NCBI RefSeq assembly: GCF_000758325.1
Contig: NZ_CP009459.1
Span: 806,001-870,000, forward strand
DNA length: 64,000 bases
Direction: 5' to 3'
Source of the DNA: Cedecea neteri
Lineage (GTDB): Bacteria; Pseudomonadota; Gammaproteobacteria; Enterobacterales; Enterobacteriaceae
Position numbers and translations under genes: made by a program. Below, one piece after another: positions 40,545 to 52,736 of the stretch; position 1 is the stretch's first letter, and the number at the start of each line of letters is the position of its first letter. Under the pieces are notes generated by a model. That model had not been told where the DNA came from. It did no database searches and saw only the letters and a list, made by a program, of their open reading frames with translations.

Positions 40545-41555
40545 ATGACCTACAAAGCGATGCAGGCCAGCGGCAACGGCAGCCTGGAACTTGTCGAGTG
40601 CTCCATACCTGAACCTGACGCAGGCGAAGTGCTGATAAAAATAGAAGCCTGCGGCATCTGTGGCGCTGACGGCGGCGTTATCGACGGTACGGAAAAGAAC
40701 GTGGCTTACCCGCGCGTGCCGGGACATGAAGTTGTCGGCACGCTGATCAAACTCGGCAGCGGCGTACCGTCCGGCCTGCGTGTTGGGCAGCGGGTTGGCG
40801 TCGGCAGGCTTGGCGGGCACTGCAATGAATGCGATGCCTGCCGCCGCGGCGAGTTCACGCTTTGCAGTCATCAACCGGTCGTCGGCAGTTCACGGGACGG
40901 CGGCTATGCCGAAATGATGCTGGCGAAGGCGACCGGCCTTGTGGCGATCCCGGATACGCTAAGCGCAGTGGCCGCCGCGCCGCTGCTTTGCGCCGGAATA
41001 GCCACCTTTAACGCGGTGCGTAAATCAGGCGCTCAGCCTGGGGATAGCATCGCAGTCCTCGGCATTGGCGGCTTAGGCCACCTGGCGGTGCAATATGCCG
41101 CCAAAATGGGCTTCCGGGTTATTGCCATCGGGCGTGGGGGCGATAAAGCACAGGCTGCGCTAACGCTGGGTGCCAGCGATTATCTCGACAGCAGTCAGGA
41201 CAATCCTGTCGAAGCACTGAAAAAACTCGGCGGTGTAAAAGCGATCGTTACCACGGTCACGGACAACGCTATTGCGTCCTCTTTGCTGCCCGCCCTGCAG
41301 CCCAAAGGCAAGCTAATGGTGCTCGGGGTCGGCCAGCAGCCGCTCATGCTTTCTCCGGGTATGCTGGTTGGCCGGGAGCTGTCCGTCGAAGGTTCGCTGA
41401 CCGGCACGCCGTATGAAACGGAAAGCGCCCTGCGTTTTAGCCTGCTGAACAACGTGCAGCCGATGACGGAAATATTCCCGCTGGCGCAGGCCAACGAAGC
41501 GTGGCAAAAAATGAAGTCCGGCAAGGCACGATTCCGCATCGTGCTGACGATGTAA
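40545..41555 (+). CDS. Zinc-dependent medium-chain alcohol dehydrogenase
   Basis: 336 aa from the ATG at 40545 with CTGGAG upstream; an upstream ATG at 40518 lies in the terminator. Catalytic zinc ligands: Cys in EACGICGADGG and the GHEVVG His-Glu. Structural zinc Cys cluster: HCNECDACRRGEFTLC. The Rossmann fold has AVLGIGGLGHLAVQYAA. It oxidises an alcohol or reduces an aldehyde with NAD(P)H; the substrate is not known. A diverged copy of its last codons (HIVLTM) sits at about 50061-50078, on the other side of the AT-rich island. Confidence 0.9.
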   Translation: MTYKAMQASGNGSLELVECSIPEPDAGEVLIKIEACGICGADGGVIDGTEKNVAYPRVPGHEVVGTLIKLGSGVPSGLRVGQRVGVGRLGGHCNECDACRRGEFTLCSHQPVVGSSRDGGYAEMMLAKATGLVAIPDTLSAVAAAPLLCAGIATFNAVRKSGAQPGDSIAVLGIGGLGHLAVQYAAKMGFRVIAIGRGGDKAQAALTLGASDYLDSSQDNPVEALKKLGGVKAIVTTVTDNAIASSLLPALQPKGKLMVLGVGQQPLMLSPGMLVGRELSVEGSLTGTPYETESALRFSLLNNVQPMTEIFPLAQANEAWQKMKSGKARFRIVLTM

Positions 41556-41568
41556 AACCCGGCGTCCA

Positions 41569-41650
41569 TTTTTAATTTAAAAATTTTCTGCCTGATTTTC
41601 AGTCTCGCGTGACCTCTCTGAAGCAGTACTTCTTGTGACTCACCTTCAGG
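41569..41650 (+). repeat. 82-bp direct repeat, copy 1, left edge of island
   Basis: Identical over 82 bp to 50094-50175. Copy 2 continues into the TonB-dependent receptor start (ATGACGATAAAA). Copy 1 continues as ACGATAAACC after losing 11 bases that include the ATG. It therefore looks like a truncated copy of the receptor gene leader, stranded next to the dehydrogenase gene. Weaker similarity extends left into the last dehydrogenase codons. Confidence 0.95.
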
Positions 41651-41751
41651 ACGATAAACCTGATAGAGCCAGCCCAAGACGGTACTAAGCCTGTTATTTT
41701 TCACGGCCCTGGTAACCGGGCCGGGGAAATTTTGGATAGGCATGGCTCACA

Positions 41752-42612
41752 TTAACTATTCTCAACGTGAAGATAAAGATAGGTATTGATATCTGTTTGC
41801 TGTTCGCGAGCAAGAGAGAAATACTTCATATAAGCAATATCTTTATGTTTTTCAGCAAGAACAAGTTCTTTTTTCTTACACATTTCTTCGCTGTAGCCCG
41901 ATACATGGGGTATATGAACCGTGAAGCATTGTTTAGCAAAATAAAATTTACATCCTATTTTTTGCAATCGTATTCCCAGGTCAATATCTTCCCCACCCCA
42001 GCTGTTAAATGTTTCGTCAAACAATCCAACGCGATAAAAAGCATCTCTTGAAACACAGACGTTTCCTGTCCATAATATATCGCCGAATACCTTCCACCTA
42101 TCATGATTACTTAAGTCATAGCCTAATAAATCAAACCGTGGATCGCGCATATCTATCACTCCCCGTTCATTAAACAGGGCCAACGTCCTATCGTCAAAGA
42201 CATAATCTGTTGAGTGCAGAATAGATAAAATATCTTCATCATGATTAAAAGCAAAAATTTTCCCTAAAAAAACATCAACATCCTGATTTTTATCAAAATA
42301 ATTAAGGTAATTGTTAATGAAATGGTTATGACAGACAAGGCCACTGTCAAGAAAAACAATATATTCACCCTCAGAGATCGCCGCACCGATATTTCGAGCC
42401 TTTGCAGCCCTAAAGCCTTTATCCTGATGATAAAAATATCTGACAAAGGTGAACATATCGCAGACAGTCCGGGTATCATCCATTGAACCATCATCAACAA
42501 CAACTACATCGAAACTATTACTGTCGTTCATCTTCTGGACAGCCAGACTATTCAATGTTCGGAGTAAAGCATCCGAGTCATTATAGGTAGGTATCACAAC
42601 GCAAATTTTCAT
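41752..42612 (-). CDS. GT2-family glycosyltransferase
   Basis: 286 aa from the ATG at 42612 with AAAGGA upstream; a frame to 42648 adds 12 unlikely residues. The GT-A fold starts MKICVVIPTYNDSDALLRTL. The nucleotide-binding DDG (residues 40-42) and FLDSG at about 88-91 are visible. WGGEDIDLG at 205-213 is the conserved acceptor-side motif of galactosyltransferase-like GT2 enzymes. No membrane helix, so a soluble enzyme. Last gene of the island operon, 47 bp after the GNAT gene. Sugar donor and acceptor are not known. Confidence 0.88.
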   Translation of the reverse strand: MKICVVIPTYNDSDALLRTLNSLAVQKMNDSNSFDVVVVDDGSMDDTRTVCDMFTFVRYFYHQDKGFRAAKARNIGAAISEGEYIVFLDSGLVCHNHFINNYLNYFDKNQDVDVFLGKIFAFNHDEDILSILHSTDYVFDDRTLALFNERGVIDMRDPRFDLLGYDLSNHDRWKVFGDILWTGNVCVSRDAFYRVGLFDETFNSWGGEDIDLGIRLQKIGCKFYFAKQCFTVHIPHVSGYSEEMCKKKELVLAEKHKDIAYMKYFSLAREQQTDINTYLYLHVENS

Positions 42613-42659
42613 ATTCAATTCCTTTAAAATAGTAAAAACTCCCGACAAAGATAATATTA

Positions 42660-43163
42660 TTAATACGTTCTACCGTTAAAATTTATCATCCCACGCAGCT
42701 GATTATTGATTACACAGCGCAACATCGCGCCATTATACAAATAGGTATTCCATCTATTATCAAGCACGTCAAAATAGTAGATTGGCAATACCAAATCATG
42801 ATATCCTGACTTTTTATAAATTTCTGTCTGGTACGCAAAAAGGAATGAGTAATAAATACTTTCTTTCTTAAGATGACCATGAATGACAGACAGCATTTTT
42901 GTCGCCAGACCTTGTCTTTGAAATTCTGGAGAAACTGCAACATCACCTATTATTCCAGCGATAAATGCGTCGCCTTCATTGTACATTTCTCTAACATACA
43001 AAGCAGCATGGGCAATAATTTCACCGTGATTTTCGGGATGACGAATGATGACTCGCAACATTAACTCTGGCGTGATAACAAGATCCTTATCGCTACCAAA
43101 TGAAGACTTTAAAAGAAAACAAGTGCCGTTATAGTCTTCATTTTTATATATCTCAACGTTCAT
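42660..43163 (-). CDS. GNAT acetyltransferase, AAC(2')/NodA-like layout
   Basis: 167 aa, one GNAT domain. Strand beta-4 IIAHAALYVREMY is followed by GIIGDVAVSPEFQRQGLATK, the acetyl-CoA loop. The order IIAHAA...VAVxPEFQRQGL recalls aminoglycoside 2'-N-acetyltransferases and NodA more than ribosomal-protein acetyltransferases; this is from memory, not alignment. In an operon with a deacetylase and an exporter it could cap an amino group for self-protection or tailoring. Gap of 42 bp from the MATE gene. Confidence 0.78.
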   Translation of the reverse strand: MNVEIYKNEDYNGTCFLLKSSFGSDKDLVITPELMLRVIIRHPENHGEIIAHAALYVREMYNEGDAFIAGIIGDVAVSPEFQRQGLATKMLSVIHGHLKKESIYYSFLFAYQTEIYKKSGYHDLVLPIYYFDVLDNRWNTYLYNGAMLRCVINNQLRGMINFNGRTY

Positions 43164-43205
43164 ATCCCCTCCTTGCTAAATACAGTTTACGTTTAACTTT
43201 ATCTA

Positions 43206-44525
43206 TTAGCTGGCGTTATACAGATTAACAATCCATTTTTTTGATTGTACACGATAGCAGTAAACAATACTTTTTAATGACTCCTCAATCACATAAAATG
43301 AGAACACAATCGTTAAACTGAAGTCAGGCATATTACTGTAATAGAAAAGCATTGGAAAACAAACCAACCACATAACTAATGTATCCGTCATAAACACAAA
43401 AAAATTATCTAATCCTGACTTCAATACACCGCTGGATAGCAAGATATTCAATGAACGCAACAACACAAACAATGCAATCAACGGATAAGCGTAATGATCT
43501 ATCTCGTCATAGTTTATGATGTTAAAGTAAATAAAATTAAATACAGATAGTAGTGCAATAAATATCACTAAAACCATAAACATAAATGCTGTTAATACAA
43601 TCGTAATATCGTAATTTGAAACTGAATTACTGACAATTTTTTTAGCTAAAGATATAGAATAATAATTTGAGAATCCAGCAGGCGCGGTGAAACAAAAGCT
43701 GATCCAGGGAATCATCAGGCTATAAATAAACATCTCTTCGTAGGCTATATTAAGTATTAACTTATAAATCATATAACCATATACAACCCACATTAAACCA
43801 TTGAAAAAATACGGCAATGTTTTCATAAAAACAGCGCATGTTATTTTTATTTCCACATTCTGTTTGATACTTATAAAAAATGCTTCACGGCAACACTTCA
43901 TTAGCGCAAATAATAATATTTTTAGCAACTTAGCAATTACAGAAGCCACTGCCACACCGGCAACCCCAGAAATAAAAGGCAGGTTGCACAACAGCCCAAA
44001 ATAAATGCTTAGCATAGCATTAGAGATAACTTCAACACATGTCAAATATAAACATTTACGCGACGATCCAGAATTGTAGAGATAGAGATCAATAATACTA
44101 CTAAAAGCATACAAAATAGTTATAGCGGGAAAATAATAAAGATATTCATTGAGCTGTTCATCTACAGAAGGAATAGACGTAAAATTCTGATAAAAACCTC
44201 TAAACACGACAAATGAAATAACTATAATAATCGCAGAAAATATCGACAACTGAGAAATACTTTTAAGATGACGAAAAAAGAATACCTTATCCTTATCATA
44301 AGATTGACTTAAAAATGAGCTGGCGCCAAATGTTAAAGCATAAATTAAGGTAAAAAAAGACCCTAAGATAATACCTACAGAAGAGCCAGCAATCGCCTGA
44401 TCTTTACCTAGCAAACTAAGGACTGTACTATCAACTAATGGTAAAGAAAAAACCAGCATTGTCTGCATGATGAAGTTTAAAGAATTTCTTATATCGTGAA
44501 ACACGCTACTTAATATGGTATTCAT
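43206..44525 (-). CDS. MATE-family efflux transporter
   Basis: 439 aa with about twelve hydrophobic helices. The late motif LRSLNILLSSGVLKSGLDNF matches the R-x-x-x-x-L-x-G-x-L-R-G-x-x-D pattern of MATE exporters. These use a Na or H gradient to expel drugs or cell products. In this operon it is the likely exporter of the pathway product. Its start overlaps the PIG-L gene by 20 bases. Very AT-rich. Confidence 0.82.
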   Translation of the reverse strand: MNTILSSVFHDIRNSLNFIMQTMLVFSLPLVDSTVLSLLGKDQAIAGSSVGIILGSFFTLIYALTFGASSFLSQSYDKDKVFFFRHLKSISQLSIFSAIIIVISFVVFRGFYQNFTSIPSVDEQLNEYLYYFPAITILYAFSSIIDLYLYNSGSSRKCLYLTCVEVISNAMLSIYFGLLCNLPFISGVAGVAVASVIAKLLKILLFALMKCCREAFFISIKQNVEIKITCAVFMKTLPYFFNGLMWVVYGYMIYKLILNIAYEEMFIYSLMIPWISFCFTAPAGFSNYYSISLAKKIVSNSVSNYDITIVLTAFMFMVLVIFIALLSVFNFIYFNIINYDEIDHYAYPLIALFVLLRSLNILLSSGVLKSGLDNFFVFMTDTLVMWLVCFPMLFYYSNMPDFSLTIVFSFYVIEESLKSIVYCYRVQSKKWIVNLYNAS

Positions 44526-45180
44526 ATAGCGTCTCTTTGCATTCTGTCGCGGACTGATGAAAATTGATTACTTCCGCTAAGATATCATCACCAACCTGTA
44601 AACCTTTTTCATACTTTTTCACTATTTCAATTTTATGTTCTAAATTGAATGTTATATCAATAACCGGAGAAAAAAACGCATCACACCATTTCCCTTTATT
44701 ATTATAGGGAATATCCCGATAAAAATAGATATTCTCGCTATTACCCACATATTTCCGACCCAACAAAGAAAGCATTACATGATCTTTATGATCGCCATAC
44801 CCCATGGGGAACAATATAAGATCATACGTTTCCATATGAATTAATTCATTTATATCTTTTTCTATTTTTTCCAGATCGTTGATGAAATCTTTATCAGGAA
44901 GTTCGTCTTTACCCATAAAAACGTCATCCCAAGAAAAAACCGGTAATTTTTGTGAAATATCTGGAATGGGAAAATAAGTAATCTGACCATTATTGAGCAA
45001 ATTTCGCTCTTCAAAAGTTCTATCAATATTTACTAATAGATTATTACTATCATTATAAACCCCGCAGAAAACATTAATTATATGAATACTATTCGATTCA
45101 TTTTTCGATAAGAAAGACAATAACCCGCCACAAGATAAAGCTGCATCATCAATATGTGGAGAAAATATGCACACCTTCAT
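44506..45180 (-). CDS. PIG-L (LmbE-type) N-deacetylase
   Basis: 224 aa. The zinc motif PHIDD (Pro8, His9, Asp11, Asp12) and the third ligand region GYGDHKDHVM (His131, His134) are intact. So is the GG turn after the motif (SCGG). The family removes N-acetyl groups from GlcNAc-type sugars: MshB, bacillithiol BshB, and NeoD/BtrD of aminoglycoside paths. Overlaps both neighbours (4 bases with the GT4-like gene, 20 with MATE). Probably unmasks a free amine on a GlcNAc residue added by one of the transferases. Confidence 0.9.
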   Translation of the reverse strand: MKVCIFSPHIDDAALSCGGLLSFLSKNESNSIHIINVFCGVYNDSNNLLVNIDRTFEERNLLNNGQITYFPIPDISQKLPVFSWDDVFMGKDELPDKDFINDLEKIEKDINELIHMETYDLILFPMGYGDHKDHVMLSLLGRKYVGNSENIYFYRDIPYNNKGKWCDAFFSPVIDITFNLEHKIEIVKKYEKGLQVGDDILAEVINFHQSATECKETLYEYHIK

Positions 45181-46121
45181 AAATAGCCTCTAATAGTATT
45201 TATAAAAGAGAATGGACCCGAGACTAATTCAATTATTCTACGCTGATTAGTCCTAACAATTTCATTTCGTTTTCTGTCAGATAAACTCTCATAATAATGA
45301 ATAGCATTTTGTATCGATGGTACAGATAAGTCACTAAGATAGTGAGGGAGATACGTTATTTCCTGATAGCTTAATGAATGAGGGACAATAGGAATGACAC
45401 CAAGAAATAAGCTTTCAATAACTCCGTAGCCATAAAGTTCCTCCCTCGACGGGAATATGGCATATTTATGAGAAGATAATTTATTATAGTAGCTATCTTT
45501 TCGTTCACCAAAAATTATATCAATACTGTCATCTGCTTCATTAAACTCTCTAATAATATCATATCCTTTCTCATAAGAAGGTCGGCCGCAATAACACATT
45601 CCTTTTCTATCAGATCTTGCATATTGTGCACTAATATCGGGTAAGTTACCCAAGGGCAACCAGCAAAAAATTGACTTCTCGGCCAGATTTTTATGCACTT
45701 CAGTAAATTGTCTCAGGGCAAATTGAGAGGGCAAAATAATGACATCCAGATACGATAACAAGCTATTCTCATATTGCAATACCCGTTGATAGTCTTGAGG
45801 ACTAAGCTGATAGCTAAAACCATACTGCTGAAATTCCCCCCCATTGACCAAGCCAATCAGTTTGCAGTCCGGATAGTACATTTTTATAATTCTAAAATCG
45901 ATAAACGTCGTATCGATAAAAATAGCGATAGAGGCATTAGACAAAACATCGCTTGAAATGATTTCAGCAGTTGTTCTTGATTTATTTATTAAAAAACCGC
46001 CTGAAGATAGATCTACATCCCGATCGATGCATATAATCTTATCATTGAAATCTGACTGAATGGCATCAAATATATTCTTTGTCCAATCCGTGTTATTTAG
46101 CCAAGGAAATATAATCTTCAT
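45177..46121 (-). CDS. GT4-like glycosyltransferase
   Basis: 314 aa, GT-B type. The C-terminal half holds the donor-site pattern EELYGYGVIE with Glu228 and Glu236 as the EX7E pair, followed by a GVIPIVP strand, as in GT4 enzymes. GRPSYEKGYDII at 179-190 is the usual GRLxxxKG motif. No membrane helix. The N-terminal acceptor domain is short. Overlaps both neighbours by 4 bases. GT4 members include the aminoglycoside GlcNAc transferases (NeoM/BtrM type). Confidence 0.83.
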   Translation of the reverse strand: MKIIFPWLNNTDWTKNIFDAIQSDFNDKIICIDRDVDLSSGGFLINKSRTTAEIISSDVLSNASIAIFIDTTFIDFRIIKMYYPDCKLIGLVNGGEFQQYGFSYQLSPQDYQRVLQYENSLLSYLDVIILPSQFALRQFTEVHKNLAEKSIFCWLPLGNLPDISAQYARSDRKGMCYCGRPSYEKGYDIIREFNEADDSIDIIFGERKDSYYNKLSSHKYAIFPSREELYGYGVIESLFLGVIPIVPHSLSYQEITYLPHYLSDLSVPSIQNAIHYYESLSDRKRNEIVRTNQRRIIELVSGPFSFINTIRGYL

Positions 46122-47779
46122 AGTATGTTATCCATTTTGGTTAACAATGAACACTTGCATATATATGATACAAGATATCTGGCATTATAATTCCCGATAA
46201 CATATTGCAGCAGTTGTGTATAATTAAAATGCTGAATCACTGATTTAATTTCAGTTGAAAAAAGATTTTCTATATCGGAAATTATCTTATTAAGCGCCTC
46301 AATCCTCTCTTCATATTCATCCTGATTAGATACCTGCTCTAACTTATGAAGATGTTGATATAAAACATTTAAAAATATTCTGTAGGCTCTCCTGTCAAAT
46401 GCAATAGTACTCGTTTTTATTTTCAGCAAAATTTTTATTGCATCAATAATATCACTTTCACTCTTCCAATCGTCGTACAAGGCCATGGGAACCAGAAAAG
46501 GGCTTTTCCTGGTAAATATTTCAGCTATTGATTGAACAGAAAATAAATTAAAATAAGACATTCGATAAATAGTAATACATGGAATCTGTCGTTCAATACA
46601 GGCATGAACTACTGCCGTATCAGCACTGATACAAATATCACATTGATCATTAATAAAAGCACCCAGCTGATTCAGATTTTGCATCGCGTCACAAAATCTA
46701 TACTCAGCGCATACACCAAGATCAATGAATGATTTAATCCATTCTTTTTCTTTATTTTGATTGAGTCCTCGCGAAATATAAAAAACGGCCCCTTCTATAG
46801 TTTCTGATAAAGAATAAATAAGATTAGAGATCATTTCAGGTGTAAGGTCCCTTTTTTCTTTCGAGGTGAACGGATTAATAAATACTACTTTCACATTCTT
46901 GGGCAGCTTACGTTCACCCATCCTCATCAAAGCATCATCATTATTAATAAAAGGAGAACAGCAGTCCTGCATATAATCTTCTATACCTTTATCAATAAGA
47001 ATAGGGTCACTTTTATGGTATTTAAAATGAAAAAGCTCATTACTTTTACGAGAAAAATAACTATTTCTTCCATTTAGTATGACTTTAAACCTATTATTAA
47101 CAGAAAGCCTTTGAAGAATCTCGCATGTAAACGTGCTATTGACATCAATAAAATCAGAGATAACGATCAGATCGTAGTGTTCAAAATTACAAGTTTTTAA
47201 CTCTTCATATTCATAAAAGGTCAATTTATTGTGATGATGTAAGTGTTGATAGCTCCGCGTGTATACATCAACTTCTAGCGCATGAAAACTGCTTAAAAAA
47301 GCTTTAGGGTAATAGAGGCTAATAAACGAGTCGCCAATATTAGTTCCATTATCATGATTATGCGGATCAACATAGAGCATTTTATTTACCAGCCCAATAT
47401 CTTTTCTTACCTTTTTATAAAATTGCTCAATGCTATTTTCTATATTATAGTGGTAGATTAATTTATCAGCCAATAATGTACTCAAATAGCTTTTATGTTG
47501 TAGTTCTCTAATGATATCTCCTCTTACAATATATCTGTAACGGTTGTCAGCACTGAAATCACTATCTATTTTCAATACCAAATGGCCAATTGGAAAAGGA
47601 AACCCAATTGTCACATTCACGACGTCTGAGCCTGAGGATTTACCTTCATCATTAGCCGCAAGTAAAAGGGATTCATCAACTTCAATAAATGAACAATCAA
47701 GTTTATTACCCAATAAAGAAATACGCTCTCGATTTTTGATAATTATATGCTTAACCTTTTCTTCAGTTATCTGTTCCAT
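46118..47779 (-). CDS. GT9-like glycosyltransferase with long N-terminal extension
   Basis: 553 aa. The C-terminal half has features of the GT9 (heptosyltransferase-like) fold: NPFTSKEKRDLTPE (302-315) and ISADTAVVHACIERQIPCIT (384-403), which matches the D-T-A-x-x-H-x-A loop. About 130 N-terminal residues and a further helical tail after 460 are not part of that fold and I do not recognise them. The N-terminal part could bind a partner or an acceptor. It follows the radical SAM gene after 4 bp and overlaps the next by 4. Confidence 0.65.
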   Translation of the reverse strand: MEQITEEKVKHIIIKNRERISLLGNKLDCSFIEVDESLLLAANDEGKSSGSDVVNVTIGFPFPIGHLVLKIDSDFSADNRYRYIVRGDIIRELQHKSYLSTLLADKLIYHYNIENSIEQFYKKVRKDIGLVNKMLYVDPHNHDNGTNIGDSFISLYYPKAFLSSFHALEVDVYTRSYQHLHHHNKLTFYEYEELKTCNFEHYDLIVISDFIDVNSTFTCEILQRLSVNNRFKVILNGRNSYFSRKSNELFHFKYHKSDPILIDKGIEDYMQDCCSPFINNDDALMRMGERKLPKNVKVVFINPFTSKEKRDLTPEMISNLIYSLSETIEGAVFYISRGLNQNKEKEWIKSFIDLGVCAEYRFCDAMQNLNQLGAFINDQCDICISADTAVVHACIERQIPCITIYRMSYFNLFSVQSIAEIFTRKSPFLVPMALYDDWKSESDIIDAIKILLKIKTSTIAFDRRAYRIFLNVLYQHLHKLEQVSNQDEYEERIEALNKIISDIENLFSTEIKSVIQHFNYTQLLQYVIGNYNARYLVSYICKCSLLTKMDNIL

Positions 47780-47783
47780 TTAA

Positions 47784-48695
47784 TTATCCTGCTCCGTAAT
47801 TTATGTTCGGCCAAATTGTGCACTCTGTAAAACAAGGGCATTTATTCATAATTTGTCTTGTATATTTAGGCTGTATATCGTCGATAAACCCCAGAGGTTT
47901 ACTCGCATGAATGCAGGGCACTATTTCTCCTGAGCTTTTTATCGTTGCAAATTTTTCCCCTGCACAACAATTCAATACGCCATCTTTTATCAGAATATTT
48001 TCATTATGCTCAAGATAGTTCAGTAATGCATAAAAATAAGCATTTTTATGATTTCCTTTCAGATAATCAATGACTAGTGCTTTTAACTTATCGCTAATTG
48101 AAAATGCAAAAGGATCTGTATCACTATTTTTATAGTACACGGAACTTTCAGCAATCCTGAATGTAAAATAGACGTCTTTTTCCGCCACAAGATCTAAAAT
48201 GAAATTAAAATCTTTAACTTCAGTCTCCGCTGAGAGCGTTGTACTTATGCCAATGCCTGTGAGTGGTGACATTTCATGAACGTAATCCAGTATTTTAATG
48301 GCTTTCAGATAAGCACCCTTACCTCGAAGTCTATCGTTTTTTTCAGGTGCACCATCTATTGATACCAAAATATTGAATTTTTTACCCGTGTTGGCAAATG
48401 CGTCTATCGCCTGAGAGACTTTTTTTAAGGATGATCCATTAGTCGTCAGATATACAGTCTCAACGGATTGGATATTTATAACTGTTTTAATAATATCAGT
48501 AAACTTAGGATGTAGCGTAGGCTCCCCTCCAGTAATTGATATCTCTCTAACATAGCGATTAATATCTTTACTAAGAAACTCAGCTATTTTTGATGGTGAA
48601 ATAAACTCCAGCTGTTTATTCTTCCATATATTGCAAAAAGTGCACCTTGCATTGCAGTTATTATTCACAATAATATTCAGTGTTTTCATACACAC
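47784..48695 (-). CDS. Radical SAM enzyme with SPASM/twitch-like C terminus
   Basis: 303 aa from a GTG at 48695 (GAGAG 5 bp upstream; ATG at 48689 is the alternative). Cx3Cx2C for the SAM-cleaving 4Fe-4S cluster: Cys14, Cys18, Cys21. GGEPT (56-60) follows. The C terminus has six cysteines (243, 244, 261, 286, 288, 292) suited to an auxiliary cluster. Such enzymes oxidise or epimerise sugars (BtrN, NeoN) or act on peptides; no precursor peptide is seen nearby. First gene of the operon. Confidence 0.9.
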   Translation of the reverse strand: MCMKTLNIIVNNNCNARCTFCNIWKNKQLEFISPSKIAEFLSKDINRYVREISITGGEPTLHPKFTDIIKTVINIQSVETVYLTTNGSSLKKVSQAIDAFANTGKKFNILVSIDGAPEKNDRLRGKGAYLKAIKILDYVHEMSPLTGIGISTTLSAETEVKDFNFILDLVAEKDVYFTFRIAESSVYYKNSDTDPFAFSISDKLKALVIDYLKGNHKNAYFYALLNYLEHNENILIKDGVLNCCAGEKFATIKSSGEIVPCIHASKPLGFIDDIQPKYTRQIMNKCPCFTECTIWPNINYGAG

Positions 48696-49014
48696 AATAG
48701 CTCTCCCAGGAAGATCTGAAATAAATTTTTAGACCGTCTCCAGATAAATAAAACACTTTACTTTCACCAATTCTTCCTATTTGTTACCTAGTTTTTCCTG
48801 AAAGCTCAGATCCTACGGTCTTCCTCCAGGAAAATGACTTTTTAGAAAAAAAGCATACTATTAGTGTGGATTTTTTCGGGAGTTTGGCTAGAATCTATGA
48901 AAACCAACTTTTATAGGGAACTTTCGGTTTAAAACATAAGCACTAAGATTCTAAAATATCGCTAATACTGAATCTTCATTTCTGGAAGAATTTAACTATA
49001 TGTGAGGTGTGTTT
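48696..49014. promoter_or_regulatory. Divergent promoter region of the island operon and MelR-like gene
   Basis: About 320 bp, AT-rich. It must hold the promoters of the seven-gene operon (minus) and the regulator (plus). MelR binds 18-bp asymmetric sites in the E. coli mel region; I cannot pick them out here by eye with confidence. Confidence 0.5.
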
Positions 49015-49962
49015 GTGGATAAAGGTACAGTGCAAAGAGAAAAAAACGTGCAAAAACATGTGGCTTCATACTATACAGAACTCACTGCAAGTCCTTTACC
49101 TTCATTATCTACACCACACAACCTTACGATCACGTTAGGCCAGCAGGAAACAAGTAACTACGGTATTTGGCATAGGCATATCGAAGTTAATATACCCTTT
49201 GATGCCCCGATTGAATTGCAAATTAATAATAATATTGCCACCATAGCGAAAGGTCAGTTATGTGTATTCTGGGGTAGCCTCCCACACAGGTTAACCCAAC
49301 CCAATAAAGGTAACAGGATTGCTGTTATATACATACCAATGCATTTATTTCTTTCATGGCCACTCCCTTTTTCAATGGTCAATAATATTACCAATGGAAC
49401 AATGCTTACCTCTATTTCCACCGACCAATTGAGTATTCAAGAAGCAACCCGTTGGTACCGTGATACGCAAAGCGATTCAGAATGGATTAGACAGCTTGCG
49501 GTGGGTGATATTGCAAGAATGATGCAAAGATTTGGTACATTGGGGTGGGAAGCGAAATTCAGCAGAAAAAACACTCCCACATTAAAAAGACAATTATCAA
49601 AACACTCTCTTTGTTATGTTAGTCAGATTCTCGAATATATTGCACAAAATTTTGATAACAACCTCAGCATACAGGAAATATCAGATCATGTACGACTTAA
49701 TCCACATTATGCTATGGATATCTTCCAAAAAATCATGCAAATGACGATTAAAAATCACATCACATATGTAAGACTAAACCACGTTAAAGTCCTGCTAAGT
49801 GAAACCGACCTGCCTATTTTAGATGTTGCCCTGCATGCCGGTTTTCAATCAACCAGTCGGTTTTACAGTGTTTTTAATAAACATGTTGGTATCCCACCGG
49901 GGAAATACAGAACGCTCAGTAAAAGCAGAACCTATAATCCTATACGCACAGGCATTAGCTAA
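49015..49962 (+). CDS. MelR-like AraC-family regulator
   Basis: 315 aa from a GTG at 49015, chosen since GAGG lies 7 bp upstream; GTG at 49009 is too close to it. The N-terminal cupin-like part (WHRHIEVNIPFDAPIELQIN, MHLFLSWPL) and the C-terminal double helix-turn-helix (NNLSIQEISDHVRLNPHYAM, LDVALHAGFQSTSRFYSVFN) match remembered E. coli MelR along the whole protein. MelR senses melibiose and activates melAB. No melAB is present here; the divergent biosynthetic operon is the apparent target, so a sugar may be the inducer. Confidence 0.88.
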   Translation: MDKGTVQREKNVQKHVASYYTELTASPLPSLSTPHNLTITLGQQETSNYGIWHRHIEVNIPFDAPIELQINNNIATIAKGQLCVFWGSLPHRLTQPNKGNRIAVIYIPMHLFLSWPLPFSMVNNITNGTMLTSISTDQLSIQEATRWYRDTQSDSEWIRQLAVGDIARMMQRFGTLGWEAKFSRKNTPTLKRQLSKHSLCYVSQILEYIAQNFDNNLSIQEISDHVRLNPHYAMDIFQKIMQMTIKNHITYVRLNHVKVLLSETDLPILDVALHAGFQSTSRFYSVFNKHVGIPPGKYRTLSKSRTYNPIRTGIS

Positions 49963-50093
49963 TTAGCTTGATTTACGCCACCAAGTACGGCGATGCCATC
50001 GCCCGCTCTACTACAAAAAGATAAGCTGATTGTGCTCAGAGTCTGACAACATGCAGTTTCACATCGTGCTGACGATGGAAAACTAGCCACCAG

Positions 50094-50175
50094 TTTTTAA
50101 TTTAAAAATTTTCTGCCTGATTTTCAGTCTCGCGTGACCTCTCTGAAGCAGTACTTCTTGTGACTCACCTTCAGG
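50094..50175 (+). repeat. 82-bp direct repeat, copy 2, right edge of island
   Basis: Identical to 41569-41650. It forms the leader of the TonB-dependent receptor gene whose ATG is 8 bp further on. Directly upstream, 50061-50078 encodes a diverged copy of the dehydrogenase C terminus (HIVLTM, then read through to a TAG). The leader must contain the receptor promoter; as the sigma gene is linked, it may be a FecI/HasI-type promoter, but no -35/-10 is certain. Confidence 0.95.
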
Positions 50176-50183
50176 GATACATC

Positions 50184-52736
50184 ATGACGATAAAAAATAA
50201 CGGAAAGGCTACGGCCATTTCCGACGCGAGCCAACCTGCACAGCTCCCTCGCGCCCCACTAGCGTCTGGCATCGCCTTATCCGGCCTGCTGGCGCTGGCC
50301 GCCGGTTTACCCACGTTTTCCTGGGCGGCAGAAGCCACCTCAGCGGCCAGCCAGGCATTTTCCGTGCCTGCCGGGCCCTTGAGCAGCGCTCTGCAAACGC
50401 TGGCGAATGATGCCAACGTAATGCTGGTCTTCACCCCGGATCAAACGTCAAATAAAACGACCTCAGGTCTCAAAGGGACTTATTCCGTACAAAGCGCGTT
50501 TGATCATCTGCTGGCGGGCAGCGGCCTGAAAGCCGTGCGCGACGGCAATAGCTATCGGCTTGTTTCCCTGCCGACAGCCTCCGGCGAGACCGCGCCGATT
50601 CTTGTGCCTGAGCTTTCCGTGCTCAGCGGCCTGGATGACAGCGTCGTAGCCGGGCGCTCAACGCTGAAAAAAGAGAATATCGAGCGCATTCAGGCCGATA
50701 ACGTCGCCGCCCTGCTGGATAAACTGCCGGGTGTCTCTTCCGCGGGTTCACCGCGCCCCGGCGGGCAAAGCCTGAATATCTGGGGCATGGGCGGCATGGA
50801 AGACATCAAAGTGACGCTGGACGGCGCGCCCAAAGGGTTTGAGAAGTACCGCCAGGGCTCGGTATTTATCGAGCCAGAGCTCATCAAACAGATCGACGTC
50901 GATAAGGGTCCGTTTAACCTCGCCAACGGCAACGGTGGCTTCGGCGGCAGCATTAAAATCGTCACCAAAGACGCGGCCGACCTCTTGCAGCCCGGTGAAA
51001 ACTTTGGCGGCATGCTGAAGTACGGTTTCCACACCAACGACAACCAGAATATCTACAGCGGCGCGCTGTACGGCAGAACGCCGGAAGGCTTTGCCGACGG
51101 CATGCTCTACGCCAGCAAACGAGACGGCGGCAATATTACCCGCCCGGACGGCACGCACTTTGATTATTCCGCTAACCGGCAGGGGACCTGGCTTGCCAAA
51201 ACCAATCTCTACCTGACCGACGCGCAGACGCTGACGCTTTCGGCCATGCATTCGGAATCCACCGGCTGGCAGCCCTTCGCCGCCAAGCGGGACGAAATTG
51301 CCGCCCCGAGCCAGGCGGATGTCGACAAATACGGGTTAGACGAGGCCTGGCGCAGAAAGCTGGTGTACCGCAACCAGACCGACGAAAACTATTCCGTGAA
51401 GTGGAACCTGGCCCCGGCAGACAAGCCCTGGCTGGATCTGACGCTGAACTACGCTTATTCCAAAACCAAACAGCATGATACCCGCCCTGACTCCGCCGGA
51501 GCCTCCAGCTATTTGGGCTCGCTCGGCAATGAGAGCTGGGTGGATTACAAAGACAACCTGGTGGAAGTCAGCAACAAGAGCCGCTTCAGCACCGGGCCGG
51601 TGGATCACCTGCTGGAAATCGGCGCAAGCTGGCATAAAAACCAACGCGATGCGCTGATGTACTATCCGGGCTACAAGAAGAATGCCGCATACAACTACGG
51701 CTACTTCCAGCCGTATTACATGCCCGCCGGGGAGCAGCAAACGCGCGGCCTGTATCTGCAGGACAGCATGACGCTCGGCAGCGTCACCGTGACGCCGGGC
51801 GTGCGCTACGACAGCGTCACCAACACCGGCGAGCCAAACATCGCCCGGATGTACAACAGCAGCGATCCTAAAGTCGGCCACGACTACAGCAGCAAAAACT
51901 ACCACGGCTTTACGCCTGCGCTGGGGCTGGTCTGGAAGGCCACGCCGAATGTGTCGCTGTTTGCCGATGTCACCCGCACATGGCGAGCGCCGACTATTGA
52001 TGAGCAGTACACCGTGCAGTACGCGCTGTCTAACGTGTCCGGCTCCAGCCGCGACCTGAAAGTGGAAACCATCAACAGCGTTCGCGGCGGGATGATCCTG
52101 AACTTCAATAATCTGCTGGCGGACGACGACAGCGTCCAGATTCGCACCACGCTATTCCGCAACCGTGGCAAAGACGAAATCTTCTACCGCCGCGGCGTGC
52201 TGTGCGAGGCGCAGTCGGTGAAAAGTGGTGCTAACTGCGGTTCTCCGCTGTCGAACTACCGTAACCTTCCGGGCTACACCATCCAGGGGCTGGAGATCGA
52301 GTCGTTTTACGACAGCCGCCGTATTTTCGGCAGTTTCTCTTTCTCTACCATTCGTGGGCAGCGTGACGCTTCCCCGCGCGACCCGTGGGGCAACCAAACC
52401 TGGATCGCAGAAATTCCACCGGTCACCGCCCACACCACGCTGGGCGTAAAAGCCCCGGAGTGGAACATGACGTTCGGCTGGACCATGGATATGGTGCGTA
52501 AACAGGATCGCTCCCCGCAGGATGGCGACCCGTTAGCGGGCATCTGGGCGTTGCCAAAAACCAGCGGCTACGCGCTGCAGGGCCTGTTTGCTTCCTGGCA
52601 GCCGGAGCAGGTGAAAGGCATGGAAGCCCGCATTGCCGTCGACAACCTGTTTAACACCGACTACTACCCGTACCTGGGTGAATCCGTGTCCGGTATCGGC
52701 CGCAACGTTAAGTTGAGTATTTCTCAGAAATTCTAA
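50184..52736 (+). CDS. TonB-dependent outer-membrane receptor with STN signalling domain, HasR-like
   Basis: 850 aa from the ATG at 50184 (MTIKNNGK). The signal peptide ends about LPTFSWAAE. The STN (secretin/TonB N-terminal) domain follows with FSVPAGPLSSALQTLANDAN (about residues 60-140). Then a TonB-box region, plug and beta-barrel ending in SISQKF. The barrel has TWRAPTIDEQY, similar to the FRAP box of heme receptors, and a Cys pair (LCEAQS, NCGSPL). Heme or hemoprotein uptake is most likely; a siderophore is possible. The STN domain would signal through the FecR- and FecI-like proteins next door. Confidence 0.82.
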   Translation: MTIKNNGKATAISDASQPAQLPRAPLASGIALSGLLALAAGLPTFSWAAEATSAASQAFSVPAGPLSSALQTLANDANVMLVFTPDQTSNKTTSGLKGTYSVQSAFDHLLAGSGLKAVRDGNSYRLVSLPTASGETAPILVPELSVLSGLDDSVVAGRSTLKKENIERIQADNVAALLDKLPGVSSAGSPRPGGQSLNIWGMGGMEDIKVTLDGAPKGFEKYRQGSVFIEPELIKQIDVDKGPFNLANGNGGFGGSIKIVTKDAADLLQPGENFGGMLKYGFHTNDNQNIYSGALYGRTPEGFADGMLYASKRDGGNITRPDGTHFDYSANRQGTWLAKTNLYLTDAQTLTLSAMHSESTGWQPFAAKRDEIAAPSQADVDKYGLDEAWRRKLVYRNQTDENYSVKWNLAPADKPWLDLTLNYAYSKTKQHDTRPDSAGASSYLGSLGNESWVDYKDNLVEVSNKSRFSTGPVDHLLEIGASWHKNQRDALMYYPGYKKNAAYNYGYFQPYYMPAGEQQTRGLYLQDSMTLGSVTVTPGVRYDSVTNTGEPNIARMYNSSDPKVGHDYSSKNYHGFTPALGLVWKATPNVSLFADVTRTWRAPTIDEQYTVQYALSNVSGSSRDLKVETINSVRGGMILNFNNLLADDDSVQIRTTLFRNRGKDEIFYRRGVLCEAQSVKSGANCGSPLSNYRNLPGYTIQGLEIESFYDSRRIFGSFSFSTIRGQRDASPRDPWGNQTWIAEIPPVTAHTTLGVKAPEWNMTFGWTMDMVRKQDRSPQDGDPLAGIWALPKTSGYALQGLFASWQPEQVKGMEARIAVDNLFNTDYYPYLGESVSGIGRNVKLSISQKF

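Follow-up and report, generated by a model that had tools for sequence, protein, structure and literature searches.

What does the radical SAM enzyme encoded at the head of a small operon in Cedecea neteri act on, a sugar or a peptide, and what does the operon around it produce? The gene lies within a stretch of 64,000 nucleotides (GCF_000758325.1, contig NZ_CP009459.1, positions 806,001 to 870,000), which is referred to here as the window. Radical SAM enzymes that tailor sugars have been described in a few antibiotic pathways.

The radical SAM enzyme

The minus strand is open over 303 amino acids from 48695 to 47784, and the translation of the plus strand is stop-ridden; the coordinates given in the preliminary description are exact, the correction being the strand. 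The protein matches PF04055 (Radical_SAM) with 73.8 bits against a Pfam cut-off of 29.5, which places it in the radical SAM superfamily. Its cysteines stand at residues 2, 14, 18, 21, 243, 244, 261, 286, 288 and 292. The CX3CX2C motif of the SAM cluster near the N-terminus (C14/C18/C21) and the cluster of exactly six cysteines at residues 243-292, both described earlier, are thus recovered, and C243, C261 and C286/C288 (C292) are the auxiliary-cluster cysteines. All 12 of 12 aligned proteins share C14, C18, C21, C243, C261 and C288, and at least 90% of them have C286, so the pattern is not due to chance. The C-x17-C spacing is common to the window enzyme and all 12 of its relatives.

The SPASM/twitch motif CX9-15GX4C, as defined in the excerpt of PMC6231123 that we used, is present as C243-x12-G256-x4-C261. 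The second half of a full SPASM domain (CX2CX5CX3C) is absent and PF13186 is not matched; CxCx3C (286/288/292) stands in its place, and one auxiliary cluster, as in a twitch domain, is therefore expected. By these motifs the protein is classed as a twitch-type and not a SPASM radical SAM enzyme. The first pair of this second half is CxC in the window enzyme and CxxC in the relatives, with the exception of one CxxxC (G923). The enzyme starts at the barrel, with no RRE-type N-terminal part.

The operon

The gene had been called the first of a glycosyltransferase operon, which holds once the operon is read on the minus strand. The seven genes run in the order radical SAM, 553-aa GT9-like, GT4-like, PIG-L, MATE, GNAT and GT2, with gaps of at most 42 bp and several overlaps of 4-20 bp (Table 1). 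The view that the neighbourhood holds sugar enzymes only needs a small correction; it overlooked the MATE exporter and the GNAT acetyltransferase, which are also in the operon.

Table 1. Features of the AT-rich island of the window and of the operon that it carries
Feature	Coordinates	Strand	Basis
Twitch-type radical SAM enzyme, 303 aa	47784..48695	-	GTG start, GGGAG upstream; PF04055
GT-B-like protein, 553 aa, GT9-like at residues ~294-413	46118..47779	-	intermediate homologue only
GT4-like glycosyltransferase, 314 aa	45177..46121	-	motif and weak profile only
PIG-L/LmbE-type N-deacetylase, 224 aa	44506..45180	-	PF02585, 40.4 bits (cut-off 28.2)
MATE-type exporter, 439 aa	43206..44525	-	Pfam and NCBIfam matches, both below cut-off
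GNAT acetyltransferase, 167 aa	42660..43163	-	PF13527, 56.8 bits
GT2 glycosyltransferase	41752..42648	-	PF00535, 86.9 bits
Divergent AraC-family regulator, MelR type	49009..49962	+	NF007693, 337.7 bits (cut-off 253)
AT-rich island, ~8.4 kb	41651..50061		34.6% GC against 58-59% in the flanks
Left direct-repeat copy, ~114 bp	41537..41650	+	94% identical; bounds the island
Right direct-repeat copy, ~114 bp	50062..50175	+	94% identical; bounds the island

The 553-aa protein has no direct Pfam or PDB match, and its intermediate homologue (L083) belongs to PF01075, the heptosyltransferase family (GT9). Only weak partial matches to it were found in 294 genomes of the family and 299 of the phylum, its own genome counted, and its single-sequence structure prediction, with a mean pLDDT of 35.6, was set aside. 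The GT4-like and the PIG-L protein were each searched in 196 other genomes of the order, and neither has a close homologue there; full-length homologues of the MATE-type exporter occur in 26 other genomes of 104 (E <= 1e-6). The GNAT protein is weakly AAC(2')-like (AAC(2') models at 5e-5; PDB 1m44 at E 0.0032), a likeness and not a membership, as its scores of ~22-23 bits compare with NCBIfam cut-offs of 375-400. The true start of the GT2 gene is likely the ATG near 42612.

The MelR-type regulator gene starts 313 bp from the radical SAM gene and runs in the opposite direction. The host has its own MelR beside melAB-like genes (L114:4353-8398), 44% identical to the regulator of the island, which may be under galactoside control. 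A promoter and terminator scan gave fewer sites than were found in shuffled sequence and was not informative.

The island

The island is a piece of foreign DNA. The direct repeats that bound it are identical at 108 of 115 positions. In G001, G003 and G005, three of the other genomes of the genus, the site is empty and both flanks abut; four more have the right flank but lack the left-hand adh gene. The island is therefore missing at this site from all seven of these genomes. One copy of the repeat was observed at the empty site of the three. No tRNA lies at the island edge in the window, no integrase was seen for the island, and no second copy of it was found in the genomes searched. A scan of the genome contigs returned one weak match.

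Relatives and their loci

At E <= 1e-13, relatives besides the own genome were found in five of 394 genomes of the order and seven of 398 genomes of the phylum, and all 12 neighbourhoods were opened. They are 24-33% identical to the window enzyme. Surface-polysaccharide loci hold eight of the 12 (G047, G091, G501, G575, G584, G827, G828 and G923); these locus calls were made partly with Pfam and otherwise by eye, with the neighbours of G735 left out on account of longest-ORF calling. According to Pfam, PF01943 flippases adjoin G047 and G501 and stand one gene off from G828, G827 has an ABC exporter gene beside it that encodes a Wzt_C domain, a glycosyltransferase gene adjoins G923, and an EpsG-type protein is encoded near G584. 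A polysaccharide pyruvyl transferase domain, PF04230, is fused to the radical SAM part in G091 and G827 (Pfam) and, by alignment to these, in G047, G575 and G584, and it is the next gene in G501. A GT2-type gene adjoins G790, G716 and G831 (the last two judged by eye), and the G790 locus also carries carbamoyltransferase, epimerase and methyltransferase genes (Pfam). Five radical SAM loci of the next tier, MoaA excluded, served as a small control judged by eye; none lies in a polysaccharide locus, and one (L091) carries a glycosyltransferase-like gene.

In a 34-row tree, with eight further rows left out, the window enzyme joins six PF04230-linked rows with a support of 87/70, which is below the limit for starring. 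These six and the window enzyme, along with the remaining relatives and the phage-encoded proteins, are split from the MoaA-like and plasmid rows at 95/88. The window enzyme thus appears to belong, weakly, with the PF04230-linked clade. The radical SAM–PF04230 proteins of O-antigen/EPS loci are its nearest sequences and have the same layout of auxiliary-cluster cysteines, whereas the window enzyme is free-standing, carries CxC rather than CxxC, and stands beside MATE, PIG-L and GNAT genes; PF04230 is neither fused to it nor matched by the next gene, that of the 553-aa protein.

The five fusions of a radical SAM/twitch part to PF04230 lie at L023:13111-15438, L024:2612-4945, L040:8180-10675, L041:7492-9879 and L043:3209-5488. 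At L042:8199-10534 the radical SAM and PF04230 parts are encoded by two genes that overlap, with a Wzx flippase gene on one side and a GT4-like gene on the other.

The open-licence literature yielded no paper that links radical SAM enzymes to these loci or to pyruvyl transferase; the absence is weak evidence because only open-licence PMC was covered. Nor did open PMC literature bring up the gene set, its association with MATE, PIG-L and GNAT genes, or the branch linked to pyruvyl transferase.

Surface polymer or small exported product

The loci of the relatives bring up a role in the modification of a surface glycan, in which a side oligosaccharide would be built on the LPS core or an envelope glycan, the MATE-like protein would act as a flippase for a lipid-linked intermediate, and the radical SAM enzyme would epimerise or oxidise a carrier-bound residue. 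The nearest relatives do lie in O-antigen/EPS loci beside PF01943 flippases. The operon encodes a GT9-like protein, a type typical of LPS core synthesis, and the best-scoring NCBIfam model for its GT2 protein describes an EPS enzyme, with 125 bits where the cut-off is 370. However, Pfam detects no PF01943 flippase among the seven operon proteins, nor any polymerase, ligase or initiating transferase; by this measure they do not make up a Wzx/Wzy locus, and the transporter is MATE-like.

The plasmid relatives of the GT2 protein also speak against a surface glycan, since those opened lie mostly in natural-product-type loci. Twelve records were obtained at E <= 1e-12 and five were opened (pELP1.10 by way of its MATE match). 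The best record, S. marcescens pELP1.10 (34% identity over 291 aa), also gives the highest-ranked plasmid match of the MATE exporter (26%, over half its length), and carries a four-gene set of GT2, hexapeptide acyltransferase, HAD phosphatase and MATE. The relative on NBC_00441 stands beside condensation domain, AMP-binding and P450 genes, that on Agrobacterium S7/73 beside other glycosyltransferase, methyltransferase and epimerase genes, that of Martelella beside a PKS, and that of BB1-1-1 beside aminotransferase and MFS genes. A MATE relative on the K84 plasmid (22% identity) is accompanied by EPSP-synthase-like, GT4-like and HAD genes. Since a GT2 relative is paired with a MATE protein on the Serratia plasmid and others lie in natural-product-type loci, a small (amino)saccharide that is exported is a better fit than a polymer at the cell surface, and the modification of a surface glycan appears rather unlikely. 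The chance that the product is a small exported compound is put a little below even.

Profile and fold matches

When the window sequence alone was searched against the PDB, MoaA (2e-8), CteB and SkfB were matched, followed by tetraether synthase, SpeY, viperins and BlsE; BtrN was not matched. Entries 5wgg/5why, which the search output labels as a sactipeptide-biosynthesis protein with a radical SAM domain, are taken by us to be CteB, and 7wzv is named SpeY in the structure-search output. With the family profile, SkfB (1e-28), CteB (1e-21) and BlsE (4e-15) were matched, and BtrN was reached at 1e-6 through the auxiliary domain only; a profile of this domain by itself gave CteB (1.5e-5), anSME (1e-3) and BtrN (0.0021). 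The predicted model of the enzyme has a mean pLDDT of 70.8, with most of the auxiliary part below 50. Its best Foldseek match is SkfB, and its fold Z scores are 21.6 for BlsE, 20.7 for SkfB, 20.5 for SuiB and MoaA, 15.4 for BtrN and 13.0 for SpeY. The best sequence and fold matches overall are MoaA, SkfB, CteB, BlsE and SuiB, and these matches do not decide between sugar and peptide. Networks of the SPASM/twitch subfamily are described in the excerpt of PMC6231123 as poor at predicting function.

BtrN, the butirosin dehydrogenase (PDB 4m7s/4m7t), resembles the window enzyme in having a single twitch domain after the radical SAM core. According to the excerpt of PMC9012708, its substrate is the sugar-like 2-deoxy-scyllo-inosamine, from which two electrons are removed, probably to the auxiliary cluster, which is fully ligated. 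The likeness is, however, confined to the auxiliary domain, the fold score of BtrN falls well short of that of the top match, and the island carries no cyclitol-forming gene.

The top fold, BlsE, is a cytosylglucuronate decarboxylase, and it points to another role, in which the enzyme would act on a nucleotide-sugar or on a non-sugar aglycone (e.g. a nucleoside or an amino acid) and the glycosyltransferases would act later. The first place of the radical SAM gene in the operon is in keeping with this, as is the profile match to BlsE. Its fold score is, however, within 1-2 of those of SkfB, SuiB and MoaA, its NCBIfam score of 39.8 bits is far below the cut-off of 400, and Pfam detects no nucleoside-handling gene in the island; action on a nucleotide-sugar or aglycone is accordingly held to be distinctly improbable.

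Search for a precursor peptide

The matches to SkfB (6efn) and CteB (5wgg), the top profile matches of the family, raise the question of RiPP maturation, in which a ribosomal peptide, encoded elsewhere or missed, would be modified and then glycosylated. The best profile and fold matches of the window enzyme include those of the SkfB, CteB, SuiB and PapB type. SkfB is itself a twitch enzyme, and the CxC ligand pair of the window enzyme recurs in SkfB and PqqE (PMC6231123, excerpt). These peptide enzymes have, however, ~90-100 residues ahead of the aligning part, the alignment to SkfB beginning only at its residue 104, whereas the window enzyme begins at the barrel; some RiPP enzymes lack an RRE. 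The NCBIfam RiPP models among the matches shown all score far below their cut-offs (e.g. PapB, 61 against 340 bits), which does not place the protein in a RiPP-enzyme family. The operon further holds a PIG-L enzyme and three glycosyltransferases, an unusual company for a RiPP cluster.

Open reading frames of 18-110 codons with less than half overlap with the eight genes were collected from both strands of 41400-50300. None of those in 48696-49008 or in the intergenic gaps is preceded by a Shine-Dalgarno-like site, and no precursor gene is thus seen beside the enzyme in the leader or the gaps. The only small frame flagged for such a site lies outside these regions, at 50124-50234, and a 31-codon frame without it (48661-48756) overlaps the start of the radical SAM gene. 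The earlier statement that no convincing small peptide gene is present therefore survives the repeated search. Among the relatives, the radical SAM genes are flanked by 24 and 4 bp (L023) and by 14 and 1 bp (L024), and that of L042 overlaps both of its neighbours, leaving hardly any room for an adjacent precursor gene. RiPP maturation is, on these counts, very unlikely.

A decayed or non-functional acquired operon, which its presence in only one of the genomes searched and its 34.6% GC within a 58% GC host region could suggest, is scarcely credible, given eight intact reading frames, tight spacing and intact catalytic cysteines.

Proposed substrate and pathway

The lack of an adjacent peptide gene and of an RRE, the relatives in polysaccharide loci and the tree support a sugar better than a peptide as the substrate, and the substrate is probably a sugar. 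This supports in part the preliminary description, which had favoured a carbohydrate substrate: the absence of an adjacent precursor or RRE and the O-antigen/EPS loci of the relatives speak for a sugar, and the tie to BtrN is a profile match, made through the auxiliary domain only.

The observed gene set, motifs, island and context of the relatives are combined here into a tentative explanation, to which we give somewhat less than an even chance: the island would make and export a small amino-saccharide, and the radical SAM enzyme would alter a C-H bond of its sugar. The MelR-type regulator would turn the gene set on. The GT9-like, GT4-like and GT2 proteins would assemble the saccharide from sugar nucleotides of the host; the island has no aminotransferase, sugar-nucleotide or cyclitol gene, and the host would have to supply the sugar. 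The PIG-L enzyme would remove an N-acetyl group, exposing an amine, the GNAT protein would acetylate the saccharide, as tailoring or as self-protection, and the MATE protein would export the product.

For the radical SAM step, SAM would be cleaved at the [4Fe-4S] cluster of C14/C18/C21, and the 5'-deoxyadenosyl radical would abstract a hydrogen atom from a C-H bond of the sugar. The resulting substrate radical might then be quenched by a cysteine, giving epimerisation as in NeoN and HygY, or oxidised via the auxiliary cluster, giving dehydrogenation as in BtrN and SpeY. NeoN and HygY are aminoglycoside radical SAM epimerases, and epimerisation at a sugar C-H is the reaction proposed for the window enzyme. 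In the excerpt of PMC10991966, Cys249 is the hydrogen donor of NeoN, and HygY is named in the title of a reference as an epimerase of the twitch type whose dehydrogenase activity is latent. Epimerisation has a less than even chance of being the reaction and is slightly preferred because no ketone-using enzyme is encoded in the island; dehydrogenation is somewhat doubtful, and a reaction of some other kind is unlikely. Beyond the four auxiliary ligands, the window enzyme retains C244 and at least one of C286, C288 and C292. A barrel cysteine present in G091, G047, G575 and G584 (+144) and in G501 (+145), and absent from the window enzyme, is a possible hydrogen donor in these relatives.

Several points weigh against this explanation. 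The tree join is not strong, and the RiPP enzymes SkfB and CteB appear as the top profile matches. The CxC of the window enzyme follows the SkfB/PqqE pattern, as far as the excerpt of PMC6231123 describes it, where nearly all relatives have CxxC. The window enzyme lacks the barrel cysteine of the five PF04230-linked relatives, and the island carries no genes for the supply of the sugar. The nearest relatives lie in polymer and not in small-molecule loci, and the likeness of the GNAT protein to AAC(2') is weak.

Sugar-editing radical SAM enzymes are a known kind. A polysaccharide-linked branch, including the pyruvyl transferase fusions, would, if real, carry this chemistry over to the glycans of the bacterial surface and pose a testable question of gene to reaction. 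At 8.4 kb the island seems to be a compact and uncommon pathway to an exported saccharide, and culture supernatants could reveal the structure of that product. A wider conjecture, unlikely as it stands, is that sugars are edited in the course of glycan assembly by a branch of twitch radical SAM enzymes not described before; PF04230-fused members in O-antigen/EPS loci would act on carrier-linked sugars and the free-standing member of this island would serve the pathway of a new exported amino-saccharide, with PIG-L/GNAT and MATE proteins protecting the producer as in an aminoglycoside-like antibiotic cluster of an enterobacterium.

Other radical SAM proteins encountered

A viperin (pVip) assignment was rejected, as the NCBIfam score is 46.9 bits against a cut-off of 180 and the PADLOC pVip match covers the core only (residues 6-164). 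The radical SAM proteins H1-H6 of small Escherichia and Klebsiella plasmids (~27% identity) were set aside as well, since the tree places them with non-polysaccharide rows; no sugar genes are listed on the two of these six plasmids that were opened. Plasmids of 4.8-7.7 kb from Escherichia marmotae and Klebsiella (L028 and L029) carry a lone radical SAM gene of ~295 aa with short hypothetical genes, possibly a peptide-modifying system. At L044:8906-11544, a B12-binding radical SAM gene (PF02310 and PF04055) lies in a polysaccharide locus, with a radical SAM gene of the twitch type and a gene for a PF01943 flippase as its neighbours. Most of the viral contigs L072-L082 carry a phage radical SAM family of ~285 aa that ends in CQRRYD and has a CX5CX3C motif.
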